A program made the position numbers and the translations under genes. A DNA stretch of 35,649 nucleotides. Origin: a virus. Below the pieces are notes generated by a model. That model worked only from the letters and a program-made list of their open reading frames with translations, was not told the origin of the DNA and made no database searches. The first letter of the stretch is position 1; each line of letters starts with the position of its first letter. Below, in pieces: positions 1 to 28,496 of the stretch. The stretch spans positions 1 through 35,649 of the IMG/VR virus record IMGVR_UViG_3300031227_000195. One strand, written 5' to 3'.

Positions 1-2044
1 ATAATCGGAGACAAGGAATGGTTTTATCAGTTTCCACAACACAACACATACTGACAAAAGTAGCTAATGGTGACACTAATTGATTAAATTCTCCAGCAAT
101 TTCTTTTGAATTTTGGGGTTGAGTGAAATTGCCTTGTTCTTGTAATCTTTTCCATCCATTTAGAGCAAATTCCAATATCTTTCCCTGATTAGCTTCTCTG
201 ATAAGTCTATGTTTCAGCGTAATATCTTCTCGACCAGCAAACGATATATCAAAACCGAGCATAAGTGCCCGTGTTTGAACAGCATTTGCATAATCTGAAA
301 AAGCAGGAAGTTCATTCATGGCTAATGTAAAAGCACCTGGTAATTTATCTGTGATTATGGTTCGTCCTTTGCGGTCGATTGCTAATGAATCATTACCAGT
401 AATCTGTAAGGTTATAGCCAATGCTTTATCCATTATACGTTGATTGCTGGTACGAGCATCACCAATCATAACAGCCTTTTTATGCACCAGATTAGCCAAA
501 CCAAATCGCTCAGCTAAACGAGAAAAAGATGTGCTAACAGAATTATCTGCACCGATTGTATGTGAGAGCACCTCAAGAATAGTCGATTTCCCTGAACGTG
601 GAACTCCTACAAGTAGCATAAATTTTTCATATTCCCGATTCGATGAAAGAACATAACCAAACCATTCGCCGAGTAATTTAATTCTTTCATTATCTCCTCC
701 AAAAACTTCTTGAAGGAATTTATACCATAATTCAGATTTGAGTTCTGGATTATACTTGTATGGAATGTGACTAACATTAAAATAATTCGGCGTAATATCA
801 TAAAATTTATCAGTCGCAATATCAAGTTGACCATTTTTAAACGGTATTAATTCTTTAGCGTTTGATGATTCGGGGTTATATACCCAGCATGGAACTTTTG
901 TAATAAGCGGGGTAACCAATGAAGCAGCAGATAAAATATCACCCATTTTGGGTCTGGTCATTCTGAGTGGTTTGACATCTTTGGAAGAAATAAAATTCTT
1001 TCCTTCAAAGTACGACCACATTGATGCAAAAAGAGTATCTCTGTCAATAATTGTATATTTTGTATCCTGAAAAATATAGTAATCTTCAAGATATTTACAG
1101 AGAAGAACTCTTTCACCATGTGTCCATCTGTTTTCTATCCACTTTCTTGCTAAATAATCAGCACCATCATTGTCAAGAAGCAATTTATTATCTATTGTAG
1201 TCGCATTTTCATTCATCCAGTTAAACAGTTTTTCTTTTGTTAAGTCATAATCCGTTACCCACTCTCGAAGGTCTTTAATTCCTTGAGGGGGTAAAACTTG
1301 CTGAACTACTGGACAGCATCGAGATAGCTTATTAGCCGCCGCCTCCATTCCTTTACGACCGACACCATCCGGGTTGTTATCACCTATCACAATAGCATTT
1401 CTACTATAACATACACCTGGAAGAAGGTCTGTTTTACCCAAAGCAGATGGTCTACCAACGGCTACAAACCCTAATTCCATTGCAGCCAGGACGTCTGTTT
1501 GACCTTCTACTATGATTACGGGATTTTTAGAAGATTCAAGAATATGAGCAGGACTATCATTTATATTGCGGTCAGCATCGAGAACATGTAAATATCCGCA
1601 ATCAGGAAAATGTTTAACCGACCCCTTACTAATTTTTGTACAGATAACAGCCGGTGGATTATAAATGTCAATAGAGGATACCAGACACCATTTAATTCTA
1701 CCACAAATTGGACACGGCAATTTCTGAGTAGTACGAACCCAATGATGTTTACCCGGATAAAATTGAGTTTTTCCCTGATTATAATCCTGATTTACAACAT
1801 AAGTTAGACCGCGTTTGGAACTCTTTATCATTAATTTTGAACCATCTTGATGTCGCTGTAAAAGACCAATAACATTACCTTTGGCATCACGTTCAGGGAA
1901 AATCCAAGATTGGGCATCGGGATTAAATCCGATGCCCAATTTTGCGATAGTAGAAGCTGAGAGACCGAGACTATTCGCTAAGTCATCCAGCATAGCTGGA
2001 AAAACATTCGTTTTATAGACTTCATATAATTCTGGAATATTCAT
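1..2044 (-). CDS. TOPRIM primase / SF3 D5-type helicase (partial, C-terminus off left edge)
   Basis: Open from the ATG at 2044 to the left edge, giving 681 visible residues; the C-terminus is missing. A zinc-finger pair (CPICG...WC, about residues 109-118) is followed by a TOPRIM core (VIIVEGQTDVL near 172-184, then IGDNNPDG near 216-222, with the acidic residues expected for primer synthesis). A helicase domain follows, with Walker A VGVPRSGKST (about 475-485), Walker B-like KAVMIGDA and a late DRKGR/MNELP stretch typical of D5/P4-type SF3 helicases. The expected role is to unwind the phage fork and lay down RNA primers for the family A polymerase encoded at 7863-9806. The start follows CTAAGGGCTGAT. 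It is the most promoter-distal gene of the leftward block. The domain calls are firm; the exact family is inferred. Confidence 0.88.
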   Translation of the reverse strand, partial: MNIPELYEVYKTNVFPAMLDDLANSLGLSASTIAKLGIGFNPDAQSWIFPERDAKGNVIGLLQRHQDGSKLMIKSSKRGLTYVVNQDYNQGKTQFYPGKHHWVRTTQKLPCPICGRIKWCLVSSIDIYNPPAVICTKISKGSVKHFPDCGYLHVLDADRNINDSPAHILESSKNPVIIVEGQTDVLAAMELGFVAVGRPSALGKTDLLPGVCYSRNAIVIGDNNPDGVGRKGMEAAANKLSRCCPVVQQVLPPQGIKDLREWVTDYDLTKEKLFNWMNENATTIDNKLLLDNDGADYLARKWIENRWTHGERVLLCKYLEDYYIFQDTKYTIIDRDTLFASMWSYFEGKNFISSKDVKPLRMTRPKMGDILSAASLVTPLITKVPCWVYNPESSNAKELIPFKNGQLDIATDKFYDITPNYFNVSHIPYKYNPELKSELWYKFLQEVFGGDNERIKLLGEWFGYVLSSNREYEKFMLLVGVPRSGKSTILEVLSHTIGADNSVSTSFSRLAERFGLANLVHKKAVMIGDARTSNQRIMDKALAITLQITGNDSLAIDRKGRTIITDKLPGAFTLAMNELPAFSDYANAVQTRALMLGFDISFAGREDITLKHRLIREANQGKILEFALNGWKRLQEQGNFTQPQNSKEIAGEFNQLVSPLATFVSMCCVVETDKTIPCLRL

Positions 2045-14175: not shown

Positions 14176-14409
14176 TTAACTATCCTTTCGTACTTTAACA
14201 AATCCGTAAATATCTGTTTCGATACCCAAATCTAATGAAAAATGTGGTGCGAGCATAATACCGTGTTCATCTATACGTAATATTGCTCCCGCTACTTGTC
14301 TATCACCAGATTCATCAACCACATAAATAACTACTCCATCGTTCCGTGTTTGACACTCAATACGAATAGGTACGTTTTCTTTATCTTTATATAATTTTAC
14401 TTTTCTCAT
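14176..14409 (-). CDS. Tandem-module protein A, copy 2 (77 aa)
   Basis: Starts MRKVKLYKDKENVPIRIECQ and contains VVDESGDRQVAGAILRIDEH. Beta-rich; ends YGFVKVRKDS. It is nearly the same as the protein at 14659-14892 and more distantly like the B proteins (VVVNEKGKT...GFLLNL). Function unknown. Preceded by GGAGGTTTAAA-ATG. Confidence 0.7.
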   Translation of the reverse strand: MRKVKLYKDKENVPIRIECQTRNDGVVIYVVDESGDRQVAGAILRIDEHGIMLAPHFSLDLGIETDIYGFVKVRKDS

Positions 14410-14410
14410 T

Positions 14411-14656
14411 TTAAACCTCCACTATAGCGACTTGAGTGTCTTTGTCAAGTGGCAAATTAAAAAATCGATTAACATTACTATACAGATAGACACCGTTAGA
14501 ACTCAAATTTAACAAAAAACCACTACTTATTGTTTTGCCCTTTTCATTAACTACAACTAAATCTACACCTGTTCTTTCCATTACTGTATTTGGTATTAGT
14601 GTCACTTTAAGGACTTCTTTCGGACTGGTACAAGGTTCGTATATTTCTATTTTCAT
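14411..14656 (-). CDS. Tandem-module protein B, copy 2 (81 aa)
   Basis: Starts MKIEIYEPCTSPKEVLKVTL and contains GVDLVVVNEKGKTISSGFLL then NLSSNGVYLYS. Beta-rich. It is the duplicate of the protein at 14894-15139, identical over the central NEKGKT...VYLYS region. No family recognised. Two bases separate its ATG from the stop of the A copy upstream. Confidence 0.7.
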   Translation of the reverse strand: MKIEIYEPCTSPKEVLKVTLIPNTVMERTGVDLVVVNEKGKTISSGFLLNLSSNGVYLYSNVNRFFNLPLDKDTQVAIVEV

Positions 14657-14658
14657 CT

Positions 14659-14892
14659 TTAACCCTTCTTTCGTACTTTAACATAACCAAATTCGTCTGT
14701 TTCGATGCCCAAATCTAATGAAAAATGTGGTAAAAGCCAAACTCCGTGTTCATCTATATTCAACAATGTTCCATCTGTGGGTCTATCACCAGATTCATCA
14801 ACTGTGTAAACACATGCCCCATTACCCCGTGTCTGACATTCAATACGAATGGGTATATTTTTTTTATCTCCGTGCAATTTTACTTTTCTCAT
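14659..14892 (-). CDS. Tandem-module protein A, copy 1 (77 aa)
   Basis: Starts MRKVKLHGDKKNIPIRIECQ, contains VDESGDRPTDGTLLNIDEHG and HFSLDLGIETDEFGYVKVRK. Same length as copy 2 with scattered substitutions, so the duplication is not brand new. Preceded by GTGGAGATTTAGA-ATG. Function unknown. Confidence 0.7.
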   Translation of the reverse strand: MRKVKLHGDKKNIPIRIECQTRGNGACVYTVDESGDRPTDGTLLNIDEHGVWLLPHFSLDLGIETDEFGYVKVRKKG

Positions 14893-14893
14893 T

Positions 14894-15139
14894 CTAAATC
14901 TCCACTATATCAACTCGACTAATTTCGTCAAGTGGTAATCCAAAAAATTGGTTAATACTGCTATACAGATAGACACCGTTAGAACTCAAATTTAACAAAA
15001 AACCACTACTTATTGTTTTGCCCTTTTCATTAACTACAACTAAATCAACGCCCGTTCTTCCTGTCACTGTAGTTGGTATTAGCATTACTTTGAGAACTTC
15101 TTCTGAACTGGTACAAGGTTCGTATGTCTCTATTTTCAT
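14894..15139 (-). CDS. Tandem-module protein B, copy 1 (81 aa)
   Basis: The ATG at 15139 is chosen over 15157 because AGGAGAGTTAAG precedes it and the length then equals copy 2. Starts MKIETYEPCTSSEEVLKVML; the central GVDLVVVNEKGKTISSGFLL is shared with copy 2. It follows a LETQDEI-family gene. Function unknown. Confidence 0.7.
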   Translation of the reverse strand: MKIETYEPCTSSEEVLKVMLIPTTVTGRTGVDLVVVNEKGKTISSGFLLNLSSNGVYLYSSINQFFGLPLDEISRVDIVEI

Positions 15140-15140
15140 C

Positions 15141-15350
15141 TTAACTCTCCTGTTCATTAAGAAAACGCATTAGTTTCCAGTATTTTTCATTATCAATACT
15201 ACATTTAGTCGTTAGAGCTTTATAAAGTGTTCGGATAAGCGGAGATGCGTCTCCGAGATTCGCGTGATATGTAAACACAAACAACTCATTGATTTCATCT
15301 TGTGTTTCTAATTGGATATTAACCATAACTGGTGCTGATGTTATCTTCAT
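15141..15350 (-). CDS. LETQDEI-family small protein, copy 2 (69 aa)
   Basis: Starts MKITSAPVMVNIQLETQDEI and contains SPLIRTLYKALTTK. Paralogue of 12835-13062, with the same strand, LETQDEI, helix and Tyr-Trp order. It is separated from its sister by the nucleotide genes and the A-B duplication. Preceded by GGGGAATTAAA-ATG, a box formed by the end of the DUF6899-like gene. Function unknown. Confidence 0.65.
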   Translation of the reverse strand: MKITSAPVMVNIQLETQDEINELFVFTYHANLGDASPLIRTLYKALTTKCSIDNEKYWKLMRFLNEQES

Positions 15351-15731: not shown

Positions 15732-15947
15732 CTAAAATTTATAAATTATTTTATCTGAGTCCCGTTTCTCATCAAATGAAACTGTTGAGATTGGAGTTGA
15801 CGGAAATAAAGATGGAAATTTTTTCTTTAACAATTCTAATACTCTATTAACATTTGCTGTTGATTGTCCAGTTTTTTTTGCAATTTCTTTAGCGGTAAGT
15901 TTCGCAGTCCAGAGTTTGTATATGGTTGTCCAATTTTTTAGGTTCAT
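15732..15947 (-). CDS. Small helix-turn-helix DNA-binding protein (71 aa)
   Basis: MNLKNWTTIYKLWTAKLTAK then EIAKKTGQSTANVNRVLELL reads as a typical helix-turn-helix (KLTAKEIAKKTGQSTANVNRV), followed by a basic stretch and a short tail. It is a candidate small transcription regulator or a DNA-binding partner of the adjoining endonuclease. The ATG shares a base with the endonuclease VII-like stop (TAATG). One of few regulator candidates in the window. Confidence 0.6.
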   Translation of the reverse strand: MNLKNWTTIYKLWTAKLTAKEIAKKTGQSTANVNRVLELLKKKFPSLFPSTPISTVSFDEKRDSDKIIYKF

Positions 15948-22977: not shown

Positions 22978-23026
22978 TTTCATTTCCTTAATAAGTGTTA
23001 GTCGGAACGCCCGACTTGATATACAT

Positions 23027-23054
23027 AGTATAGATTATCCTGTCGGTAAGTCAA
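23027..23054 (-). promoter_or_regulatory. Leftward sigma70-like promoter 1
   Basis: TTGACT (23054-23049) and TATACT (23032-23027) with a 16-base spacer; the predicted start is near 23019, 36 bases before the ATG at 22983. The -10 palindrome is imperfect here (TGATATA / TATAGAT). Probably the first promoter of the early operon. Confidence 0.75.
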
Positions 23055-23081
23055 GTGAAAAATGCCCGGAAAGCAAACTAT

Positions 23082-23108
23082 CTGGTTATACTGGTTGTAC
23101 TGGTTGTA
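23082..23108. repeat. Three tandem 9-mers CTGGTTRTA
   Basis: CTGGTTATA, CTGGTTGTA and CTGGTTGTA lie head to tail. Degenerate units at the same 9-bp period recur at 23163-23207 (CTGGCTGTA, CTGGTCATA, CTGGTTATT). Confidence 0.7.
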
Positions 23109-23265
23109 AGGACAGGGTATAGTAGAAGGCCCTTAACCGAAAATAGCCACACCACGACTTATCTGGCTGTAACAGTTGTGCTGGTCATAAGGATAGTGCT
23201 GGTTATTTCGCAGAGGTCGTGGTGCAAATAGGATTGTACTGGTTGTGTTAATTGTGGGAGTTGTA

Positions 23266-23645
23266 GTGTTCTATACTCCGGGCTTAGGCGACAAGTTGTA
23301 TAGAACACACTTAAACAATTATGATATAAAGAGTTAAGTGAGTATTAGTGGTGTTTACTGTTCTATATGCAAAATGCAATATGGAACACTTAAGTACTGA
23401 TGGTATAGGTGGTTATGACTACTGTTCTATATGTTCTATATAAAAAGCAAGTCAATAGTGTATAGGATATGCTATATATATGAGTATATGCTGTATTGTA
23501 TAGAATATGCGTATATATTTATATGCGTGTAGGGAGCGGTATAGCAAAAGTGTATAGAACATATAGAACAGCTACGGTAAGTTCTTATGGGAGCAGGAGT
23601 TAAGTGTTCTATACAGTATAGAACAAATATGGAACAGTATAGAAC
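23266..23645. repeat. GTTCTATA / TATAGAAC iteron array
   Basis: Ten exact copies: GTTCTATA at 23268, 23360, 23424, 23433 and 23606; TATAGAAC at 23299, 23553, 23562, 23617 and 23638. Variants TATGGAAC at 23380 and 23628, TATAGAAT at 23499. Pairs are 9 bases apart (23424/23433, 23553/23562), or face each other as palindromes (23606-23624, 9-bp arms with one spacer base; 23266-23308, 11-bp arms). Likely binding sites for a replication initiator or regulator. Confidence 0.75.
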
Positions 23646-23751
23646 AGCACAAAATGAACGTGCGTTCCAGGGCTGTTGTCGGTGGAAGTCCCGGACACAC
23701 CAAATAGGACCGTTAACCGCATCACCACATCCCGATTAAGCCAACCAGCGA

Positions 23752-23779
23752 TTGACTACGGCCATAAGTTGACTATGTT
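23752..23779 (+). promoter_or_regulatory. Weak candidate rightward promoter
   Basis: TTGACT (23752-23757), 16 bases, TATGTT (23774-23779). The -10 matches only four of six positions and the first rightward gene starts 300 bases later, so this is tentative. I saw no better promoter before 24085. Confidence 0.2.
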
Positions 23780-24084
23780 AGTGGTAAACATCCCCATATT
23801 TGTTTTAGGCCCTTAGGATTGACGTCAAGGCCCTTGCCGGTGTTCCCTACCTTTACCCACCCGTGCCACCCACGAGAAGTAGGACCCGGAAGTCCGCCAA
23901 CCCCCTAATGGGAACACGCAGACGGCCTTCCCCGGCCAGACATCCCTGTAATCGTTGTAATCGTTATAACTAACATCCCCATTCCCAAATTTTTTGGAAA
24001 ATTTTTTAGGGATATTGCCAAATACTATAGTAAATTGCCCCCTATATAGAGAGACCTACTTTTCTTTCAAAGGATAGTGCTATT

Positions 24085-24630
24085 TTGAGTTGGTTACAGC
24101 AATTAATCGACTGTCTATTTTCCTTTGTTCCACGAATCTGGCTTGTCAATCCTGACGAGGCCGGCGTGCGTATTACTTTAGGGTCTCGCGTCTATCCCAC
24201 ATCCCCCGGTTGGTACTTCTACTGGCCGTTAATACAGGAGTGCATCAAGTTAACGGTTACAGTGCAGGTTAAAGACCTTAGGGCACAAAGCCTGACCACG
24301 AAGGATGGCAAAAATATAATCATCTCTGGAGCAGTTCAATATAAAATCACAGATGCGGGCAAGGCTTTGCTGAATGTCCAGAATTTTGACGAAACTCTGC
24401 AAATCCTGACGACGGGGAGTATTAGCGATTTTATCAGTGATAAGGATTATGCAGATTGTGAGGATATTACTGCCTTTGAGGATGTTCTACTTCGCAAGAT
24501 ACGGGAGACAGCTTCCGGTTTCGGTTTGAAGATTATGAGAGTGTTCATTACGGATTTTTGCCAGTCTAAAACCTATCGCATTGTGGGGATTATGAACAAT
24601 GAAAACTTGCAGCATGAGGAGAGTCGATGA
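24085..24630 (+). CDS. SPFH/band-7 (stomatin/HflK-like) protein
   Basis: 181 residues from a TTG start after AAAGGATAG. A hydrophobic N-terminus (MSWLQQLIDCLFSFVPRIWL) is followed by VNPDEAGVRITLGSR, SPGWYFYWPLI, SLTTKDGKNIIISGAVQYKI and an Ile/Leu-rich helical end, the order of the SPFH domain of stomatins and HflK/C. Such proteins oligomerise at membranes and regulate proteases. First gene of the rightward block; a membrane-anchored serine protease lies 0.7 kb downstream. It is shorter than bacterial homologues and lacks their long coiled coil. Confidence 0.8.
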   Translation: MSWLQQLIDCLFSFVPRIWLVNPDEAGVRITLGSRVYPTSPGWYFYWPLIQECIKLTVTVQVKDLRAQSLTTKDGKNIIISGAVQYKITDAGKALLNVQNFDETLQILTTGSISDFISDKDYADCEDITAFEDVLLRKIRETASGFGLKIMRVFITDFCQSKTYRIVGIMNNENLQHEESR

Positions 24631-26572: not shown

Positions 26573-28496
26573 TAAGCAAACGATAAATGTCGCTGTAAAA
26601 CCAGAGTTAGCTACTCCATTTCCTAATATACCGGAAAAGTGGAAGGACCCGATAACAGGAATTTACGTACCGAAATTTGTCGGCCCTAATTTGGAATGGC
26701 GTGGAAAACTATTAAAAAAGGCAAGAAATGACCCTATTTTACAAAGAGATTTGATTGCGGCATCAAAAGAATCAATGTTGTTTTGGATTAATACATTTGC
26801 TTTTACCTACCACCAGCATGATATTAATGAAGATGGGCATACTTCGACATGTTTGCGTCCACATTGGCCGTTTATAACCTGGGATGTTCAGGATGATACG
26901 TTTCTTGAGATTAAAAATGCTGTAGAAACGGGATATGATTTAGGTATTAGAAAATCACGGCAAATGGGTGCATCCTGGATGTGTATAACAGCATTTCATT
27001 GGTTCTGGTTATTTGTAAATGAGAGTAAATTACTTGAGATGTCACGTGTTCGAGAATATGTGGACCAACCGGGCAATATGAAAAGTTTGTTTCAGAAACA
27101 TGACTATATTAATAGATTTTTACCAGAGTGGATGAGACCGCCCACTTGTATGCCCGGTGAAAAAGGTCGAACACGCATGCACATGCACAATTCATGTAAT
27201 AATAGTACGATTGATGGCGAATCTACTACTCAACATGCTGGTTCCGGTGATACTCGAAAAGCCATATTGCTTGATGAATTTTCTAAAGTGGAAAACGCGT
27301 CCGCAATGAGGTCAGCTACGGCTGATGTCGCACCTTGTAGAATTGTGAATAGTACCCCAGCAGGTGCTGGTACTGAATATAGTAGATGGATGCGTTCAGG
27401 TAAAATTAAAGTAATAGTTTTGCCGTTTTGGGAACATCCTGAAAAAGGTAGGGGTCGTTATATTAACGAAGTTAAAAAAGGTAAATATGAGATTCGTTCA
27501 CCCTGGTATGATAGGGAAGATGAGCGGCGTACTTCCAAACAAATGGCCCAGGAAGTTCTAATGCAGGATATTCAATCTGGTGATGTGTTCTTTGATATTG
27601 ATTTGCTCGATAATCATAAAGCATTGTTTGGTAAGAAACCCCAGCATAGTTTTAATATCGGAATTAAAAAAACAATATTTGATGAGCAAATTGCGGCCCA
27701 TATAAAGAGTCGAGACCAAGAAGCCTATTATCTAAAACGAGAAAAAGTTAATCCATTAAGAATATGGGTTAAACTTTTTAATAAGAGACCTGACCAAACT
27801 AAGAGTTATGTTTTTGGTATCGACCTTTCTAAAGGTCAAGGGGCTTCTAATTCAGTAATTTCTATTAGATGTAGAGAAACAAATGATAAAATTGCTGAAT
27901 GGGCTGATGCTAATGTACCACCCTATGAAATAGCGAGGACGGTTGTGGCTCTTGCATTATGGTGTGGTGGTAAACCCCCACGCAAATTACCATTTATTAA
28001 ATGGGAAATGAATGGTCCCGGTTGGGATTTTGGTCGTATGATTGTTCAGCGTTATCATTATCCTTATTATTTTCGACAAACAAGTGAAGGAACAGTTAGA
28101 GATAAACAAACTAAAAAATATGGATGGCATAGTGGTAGAGAATCTAAAAAATTATTGCTTGACCAATACCATCGGTTACTTGCTACAGGTAAATTTATTA
28201 ATCATTCGATTGAAGCACTTGATGAAGCAATATTTTATATTTATTTTCCTGATGGTTCAATCGGCCCGGCTTCTTTAACAGAGGAAAACAAAGGAGCTAA
28301 AAAGACACATGGCGATAGAGTTATTGCTGATGCCCTGTGTGCTGAGGATTGTATAGTTAAACCATCTGAAAAAACGCTGATATATTCTGCGGATTCAGTT
28401 GGTCAGCGTAAAATAAATTATCTCGCCAAAAAGAAGCGAGCAAAAAGCCAACAGACAAGTTGGAAAAGACCATTTAATTTTATTGGGATGAATTGA
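26565..28496 (+). CDS. Terminase large subunit
   Basis: 643 residues from the ATG at 26565 (a longer in-frame start at 26490 only duplicates the previous gene). Walker A variant GIRKSRQMGASW (about 128-138), Walker B KAILLDEF (D237, E238), and RNase H-like nuclease motifs VFGIDLSKGQG (D420), KWEMNGPG and GDRVIADAL. It drives DNA packaging into proheads and cuts the concatemer. Stop and portal start overlap (TGATG). Confidence 0.92.
   Translation: MFNKQTINVAVKPELATPFPNIPEKWKDPITGIYVPKFVGPNLEWRGKLLKKARNDPILQRDLIAASKESMLFWINTFAFTYHQHDINEDGHTSTCLRPHWPFITWDVQDDTFLEIKNAVETGYDLGIRKSRQMGASWMCITAFHWFWLFVNESKLLEMSRVREYVDQPGNMKSLFQKHDYINRFLPEWMRPPTCMPGEKGRTRMHMHNSCNNSTIDGESTTQHAGSGDTRKAILLDEFSKVENASAMRSATADVAPCRIVNSTPAGAGTEYSRWMRSGKIKVIVLPFWEHPEKGRGRYINEVKKGKYEIRSPWYDREDERRTSKQMAQEVLMQDIQSGDVFFDIDLLDNHKALFGKKPQHSFNIGIKKTIFDEQIAAHIKSRDQEAYYLKREKVNPLRIWVKLFNKRPDQTKSYVFGIDLSKGQGASNSVISIRCRETNDKIAEWADANVPPYEIARTVVALALWCGGKPPRKLPFIKWEMNGPGWDFGRMIVQRYHYPYYFRQTSEGTVRDKQTKKYGWHSGRESKKLLLDQYHRLLATGKFINHSIEALDEAIFYIYFPDGSIGPASLTEENKGAKKTHGDRVIADALCAEDCIVKPSEKTLIYSADSVGQRKINYLAKKKRAKSQQTSWKRPFNFIGMN

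Follow-up and report, generated by a model that had tools for sequence, protein, structure and literature searches.

Short repeated DNA words are known from phages and their satellites in several arrangements. Lambdoid origins contain an AT-rich unwinding element beside the iterons, with type-specific words in different phages, and mycobacteriophage stoperators are many copies of a short asymmetric word that differs between phages and is dispersed over the genome. In phage P4, the winged helix of the alpha protein binds the origin repeats, after which unwinding and priming follow (PMC4234260). In P4, a single ori unit lies about 5 kb from crr, which consists of two units in direct repeat and adjoins the alpha gene; the annotated type-1 iterons (TGTTCACC) are located at offsets 0, 10, 53-, 75, 86 and 96 in ori and at offsets 0, 9, 52-, 70 and 84 in each of the crr units, the minus sign denoting an opposed iteron. 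PICI origins always comprise two sets of iterons that flank an AT-rich region (PMC6092414), and the iterons of SaPI are recognized by the C-terminal domain of Rep (PMC7581432). According to the 2018 study of PICI origins, no other known bacterial replicon has such a two-sided iteron organization (PMC6092414).

Here, we report the analysis of an iteron array that is very probably the replication origin, of the phage P4 alpha type, of an uncultivated phage. The window, that is, the whole stretch of 35,649 nucleotides that was analyzed, is an IMG/VR record without end repeats and is incomplete. The array consists of the following elements.

23267 to 23646, both strands: iteron array with ten exact copies of TGTTCTATA
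23267, 23359, 23423, 23432 and 23605, plus strand: starts of exact TGTTCTATA copies
23299, 23553, 23562, 23617 and 23638, minus strand: starts of exact TGTTCTATA copies
23267 to 23307: outermost left iterons, at 23267 (plus) and 23299 (minus)
23359 to 23440, minus strand: left iteron unit, with the tandem pair 23423/23432, the opposed iteron 23380 and a further iteron at 23359
23441 to 23552, between the tandem pairs: AT-rich centre of 112 nt, candidate unwinding element
23553 to 23646, plus strand: right iteron unit, with the pair 23553/23562, the opposed iteron 23605 and then iterons at 23617, 23628 and 23638
23598 to 23606, plus strand, direct reading: AGTTAAGTG, directly 5' of the opposed iteron of the right unit

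The initial annotation described five forward and five reverse copies of an 8-mer at a density far beyond chance, and a count over the whole window bears this out exactly: there are ten exact copies of GTTCTATA, five per strand, all within 23268-23645, compared with 1.65 expected by chance per window, and none of 100 shuffles reached ten, which rules out chance clustering. A T precedes GTTCTATA in 10 of 10 copies, so the repeat unit is the 9-mer TGTTCTATA. The array also includes one-mismatch copies, TATGGAACA, at 23380 and 23628 and a near copy, TATAGAATA, at 23499. A search for further copies in the other 35.1 kb of the contig recovered a single exact instance of the 8-mer core TGTTCTAT; the TGTTCTATA word is thus confined to the array, with 12 to 13 sites at one place. 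The 9-bp spacings noted earlier are present at 23424/23433 and 23553/23562, whereas the palindrome centres of 1 and 21 bases hold only with GTTCTATAC arms and become 3 (23614-23616) and 23 bases for the 9-mer TGTTCTATA. No DNA similarity of the array region to deposited phages was found, and the 18-mer formed by two tandem words was detected in only two viral contigs, which look unrelated. Searched as a possible RNA element, the region had no Rfam match, and the predicted folding of 23660-24000 was no better than that of shuffled sequences.

The array consists of two halves that are mirror images of each other around 23441-23552. In each half, two tandem iterons spaced by 9 bp are followed by an opposed iteron 43 bp farther out and then by further iterons; read outward from the centre, the offsets are 0, 9, 52- and 73, followed by two more iterons, on the left, and 0, 9, 52-, 64, 75 and 85 on the right. 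The 112-nt centre is 69% A+T, and only 0.03% of the 80-bp positions in the contig are as weak as its least stable 80 bp. This arrangement closely matches the type-1 unit geometry of P4 ori and crr, in which iterons of 8-9 bp occur in both orientations: two in tandem are spaced by 9-10 bp, an opposed one lies 52-53 bp from where the tandem begins, and the next ones follow in steps of 10-11 bp. The main departure of the right half from P4 ori is a single spacer that is off by about one helical turn, and in a related contig, L038, the offsets of the right half are 0, 8, 52-, 73, 84 and 95. An AGTTAA-type motif precedes the opposed iteron in both systems, as AGTTAAAG in P4 ori and as AGTTAAGTG in the right unit of the window. 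There are also clear differences from P4. The words TGTTCACC and TGTTCTATA share only TGTTC, and the direction of the word within the layout is reversed in the window. Instead of separate ori and crr units, the two units of the window form one inverted repeat around the AT-rich centre, approximately 21 kb from the primase gene, in a phage genome of roughly 50 kb that encodes a family A polymerase of its own; no separate crr was found besides the ori, the incomplete 35.6-kb contig containing one word cluster only.

In overall organization, as described for PICI and SaPI origins (Rep or Pri-Rep), the window likewise has two iteron sets flanking an AT-rich region, and the PICI systems, too, have an SF3-type initiator whose C-terminal domain recognizes iterons that differ between elements (PMC6092414, PMC7581432). 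However, PICIs are satellite islands with the origin immediately 3' of rep, whereas in the window the primase gene (2-2044) is remote from the array (23267-23646), which is located in the divergent gap of a phage that encodes a capsid and a terminase of its own. In lambda, the initiator (the O protein) is no helicase-primase, and its own gene contains the iterons, which are direct repeats; the presence of iterons as such is common to lambdoid origins and the window (PMC11447400). The array shares with stoperators the many copies of a short, asymmetric, phage-specific word; the sites in the window, however, are confined to one 380-bp place.

The genomic context of the array is defined by the following features.

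2 to 2044, minus strand: SF3 primase-helicase (Toprim, D5_N, DUF5906, TIGR01613), the proposed initiator, with its 3' end cut by the contig end
7863 to 9806, minus strand: family A DNA polymerase of the leftward replication module
15732 to 15947, minus strand: short HTH protein, the rival candidate for binding the word
23027 to 23054, minus strand: consensus-only promoter match, TTGACT-N16-TATACT, that borders the gap on the left and would serve the leftward replication operon
24085 to 24630, plus strand: Band 7/SPFH protein, the first rightward gene past the gap and a synteny anchor in some relatives
26595 to 28496, plus strand: terminase large subunit (ORF start 26490, homology from about 26595), a synteny anchor for finding relatives

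As the initial annotation stated, the array sits where genes diverge: the gap 22984-24084 contains no plausible gene, and genes run away from it on both sides. The leftward genes to its left encode replication proteins, namely, the SF3 primase-helicase, an exonuclease, a TopoVI-like Toprim protein, a Sak4-like protein and the family A polymerase, and the rightward genes to its right encode the Band 7 protein, a DegP/HtrA-like protease, terminase, portal and a presumed capsid protein. GC skew does change sign at the gap, but this check is confounded by gene direction: transcription switches direction at the same place, so the skew is not independent evidence of an origin. Given the location of the array 2-3 kb upstream of terL, and given that two related contigs (L009 and L010) begin shortly downstream of the gap, the array could conceivably be a site of packaging (pac/cos) or of partition close to the terminase genes. 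Other contigs, however, run through the gap, a packaging site would require neither a weak centre nor P4-type spacing, and no ParA/ParB-type gene was recognized among the proteins searched; we consider this explanation highly improbable.

The noncoding gap also contains a second 9-bp-periodic repeat (CTGGTTGTA-like) at 23077-23265, with TGTAATCGT at 23947-23969 on the right side, so that the array is flanked by it. P4 ori likewise has a second repeat class, the 10-bp type-2 repeats, beside the type-1 iterons.

The Toprim-SF3 primase-helicase encoded at 2-2044 on the minus strand is likely to be the initiator. It scores 151 bits against TIGR01613 ('phage/plasmid primase, P4 family'), above the cutoff of 108.7, which places it in the same NCBI family as the P4 primase, and the primase is encoded by all long contigs whose arrays were scored. 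By sequence, the closest protein of solved structure, identified with the homologue from the related contig G023, is 7ola ('DNA primase'), which we take to be the SaPI5 primase-helicase. The window protein ends just before the C-terminal DNA-binding domain, which was read in relatives only, and the winged-helix step is accordingly a prediction for the window. In the relatives, conservation within the primase is lowest in the domain that follows the SF3 core (approximately 26-31% versus approximately 50% in the core), as expected if this domain reads a word that changes among relatives. The profile of this domain matches RFX winged-helix DNA-binding domains in the PDB (RFX5, E 1.4e-6), and the AlphaFold model of the domain from a relative (pLDDT 88) resembles, in a fold search, both the RFX-DNA structure 1DP7 (Z 10.7) and 1KA8, the origin-binding domain of P4 (Z 8.7, 84 of 100 residues). 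The origin-binding-domain fold thus appears to be shared with P4, as read in relatives, although the alignment of the domain profile with the single P4 alpha sequence was not significant. The fold search ranks RFX domains above the P4 domain; since RFX is a eukaryotic factor, we read this match as indicative of the common winged-helix fold rather than of function.

The initial annotation left open whether the array is an origin or a regulator-binding region. The mirror symmetry at a weak stretch, the P4 geometry, the P4-family SF3 primase and the layout kept in relatives all point to an origin, and regulation is less likely to be the main role. We infer that the primase binds the 9-mers, that the centre is where melting begins and that forks leave it in both directions. 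Under this scenario, the Toprim-SF3 primase-helicase would bind the 9-mers via its C-terminal winged-helix domain, and a hexamer would assemble on each iteron unit; the AT-rich centre would then melt between the loaded units, and two helicases would move outwards, producing two forks, both of which would be extended by the phage's own primase and family A polymerase. It is possible, if on balance unlikely, that primase binding at the origin has a second role, repressing the adjacent leftward promoter. Such autoregulation would fit the location of the array directly behind the promoter-like site and the presence of the primase gene on the same strand as the leftward genes, but the outermost iteron is about 210 bp away from that site.

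Searches with the terminase and the Band 7 protein led to over 90 related viral loci and, in MAGs, to two contigs; both of the latter were examined, together with 27 viral contigs 32-51 kb long. These relatives were found by terminase and Band 7 alignments; a search of viral contigs with the polymerase alone found none. Portal, capsid, polymerase, exonuclease, Sak4 and metallophosphoesterase genes are common to many of them, and in a large share, one short word is clustered in both orientations 3-6 kb upstream of the terminase. About 18 related uncultivated phages have an array in the corresponding position; its layout is often that of the window, its word usually another. The words include the following, plus others.

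TGTTCTATG in L111; TGTTCCC in L108; TGTCCATA in G023; TGTCCC in G006; TGTGCTAT in G017
TGCACA in G015 and G022; TGGYRTAG in G012; TRCCATAG in L112; ATGAACGA in L038; CCTATGTT in G013
TCTAGGTA in G027; TTAGTTAT in G004; ATGCCACA in L088; GTCCACAC in L090

The recurring layout is a tandem pair, an AT-rich centre of approximately 90-140 nt and a mirrored pair. A quartet of the form WW-centre-rcWrcW, with at most two mismatches, is present in 6 of 36 contigs compared with 1 of 720 shuffles. The words and regions for the 19 scored arrays were chosen after inspection. Opposed iterons at 43-46 bp make up 21 pairs versus 8.9 expected (p ~0.0007), and there are 11 P4-like units versus 3.2 expected under a gap-permuting null with a maximum of 11 in 2000; this null gives a weaker result than a uniform one because the 43-46-bp gaps are retained in the permutation. 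In most of 18 arrays tested for stability, the centre is the weakest or among the few weakest places of its own contig (exceptions are L111, G022 and G015). Arrays are weak or irregular in five relatives (G011, G016, G024, G010 and G019), and no clear array was seen in several of the contigs inspected (for example, G002, G007, G008 and G014). Judging by these sequence comparisons, the architecture of the array appears to outlive its sequence.

Correlations of word similarity with protein identity, which covered the primase winged helix and N-terminus, the HTH protein, terminase, portal and polymerase, did not discriminate between the candidate binders of the word. The partial correlation is weak, at 0.24, for the winged helix (p 0.006, resting partly on one near-identical pair), 0.23 for the primase N-terminus (p 0.014), 0.24 for the HTH protein (p 0.034) and 0.19 for the portal (p 0.035); because the portal and the primase N-terminus also reach p <0.05, the winged helix is not singled out. 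The short HTH protein at 15732-15947, proposed earlier as a binder, belongs to a family found in most array-bearing relatives. If a regulator of this family bound the 9-mers, the array would be an operator region, a switch for leftward early and rightward late transcription, consistent with its position between divergent operons with a promoter-like site at the left edge, with the HTH-word correlation (p 0.03) and with the similar place of the HTH gene in most relatives, where the first recognition helix varies on a conserved scaffold. The pair G004 and G017, whose terminases are 88% identical and whose words are TTAGTTATT and TGTGCTATT, respectively, differs in the HTH helix as well as in the word but has nearly the same primase recognition helix, and we retain the HTH protein as a rival because this pattern of change favours it. 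Nevertheless, the family was not found in the array-bearing G010, G011, G015 and G016 (some of these contigs are incomplete), and an operator would explain neither why the halves mirror each other at the weakest DNA, nor the spacing shared with the P4 origin, nor the 12 to 13 sites at one place. We therefore regard the operator explanation as improbable, and the primase-helicase, which the initial annotation did not name, as the better candidate for the initiator.

Returning to the origin interpretation, we tentatively suggest, with somewhat less than even confidence, that the origin of this phage family has mechanics that stay fixed: P4-type units, mirrored at a melting centre, would form a scaffold in which words are exchanged faster than the terminase diverges, as in G004 and G017. 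If so, origin and initiator would define mutually exclusive specificity groups, deciding which phages can co-replicate and which can be parasitized by satellites with matching origins. P4-type modules have precedents, as do two-sided iteron origins, which in 2018 were said to occur in PICIs only (PMC6092414). The open-access papers searched contained no example of their combination as in the window, with inverted P4-type units at a melting centre, a distant initiator gene, a changing word on a recurring scaffold and a phage of roughly 50 kb that encodes its own polymerase. The array offers a concrete, testable origin for a widespread phage group without a close cultured relative, and suggests that a layout known mainly from satellites (P4 and PICIs) is used by phages with their own capsid, terminase and polymerase genes. 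The approximately 18 phages with related layouts but different words constitute a natural experiment on change of initiator specificity.

Several other features of these genomes were observed. An element, CCCCCGGGTAGTACCCTTGACC, with the 11-bp palindrome GGGTAGTACCC, is conserved in about 12 relatives approximately 300-900 bp to the right of the array (positions relative to terL are, for example, G006, -5950; G007, -3970; G009, -3453; L061, -2548) and may be a rightward promoter or operator; the window has no exact copy, the nearest sequence being AGTAGGACCC at 23878. In many relatives (for example, G004, G018, G019 and G026), genes are preceded by clustered or scattered copies of another word, GTCCGATAA/TTATCGGAC; the 9-mer is present in 26 of 52 upstream regions, and the word is absent from the window. 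The two MAG contigs, L111 (JAKOVB010000086) and L112 (VRUG01000020), are binned in MAGs labelled Pseudomonadota and Planctomycetota, respectively; possible misbinning makes the hosts uncertain. At 14176-15157, the window contains a 483-bp tandem duplication, about 81% identical, that includes two pairs of small paralogous genes. Finally, the family A polymerase appears as two separate same-strand matches in G007, G010, G017 and G023, with about 1.1 kb between them in G007, which suggests split or interrupted polymerase genes.
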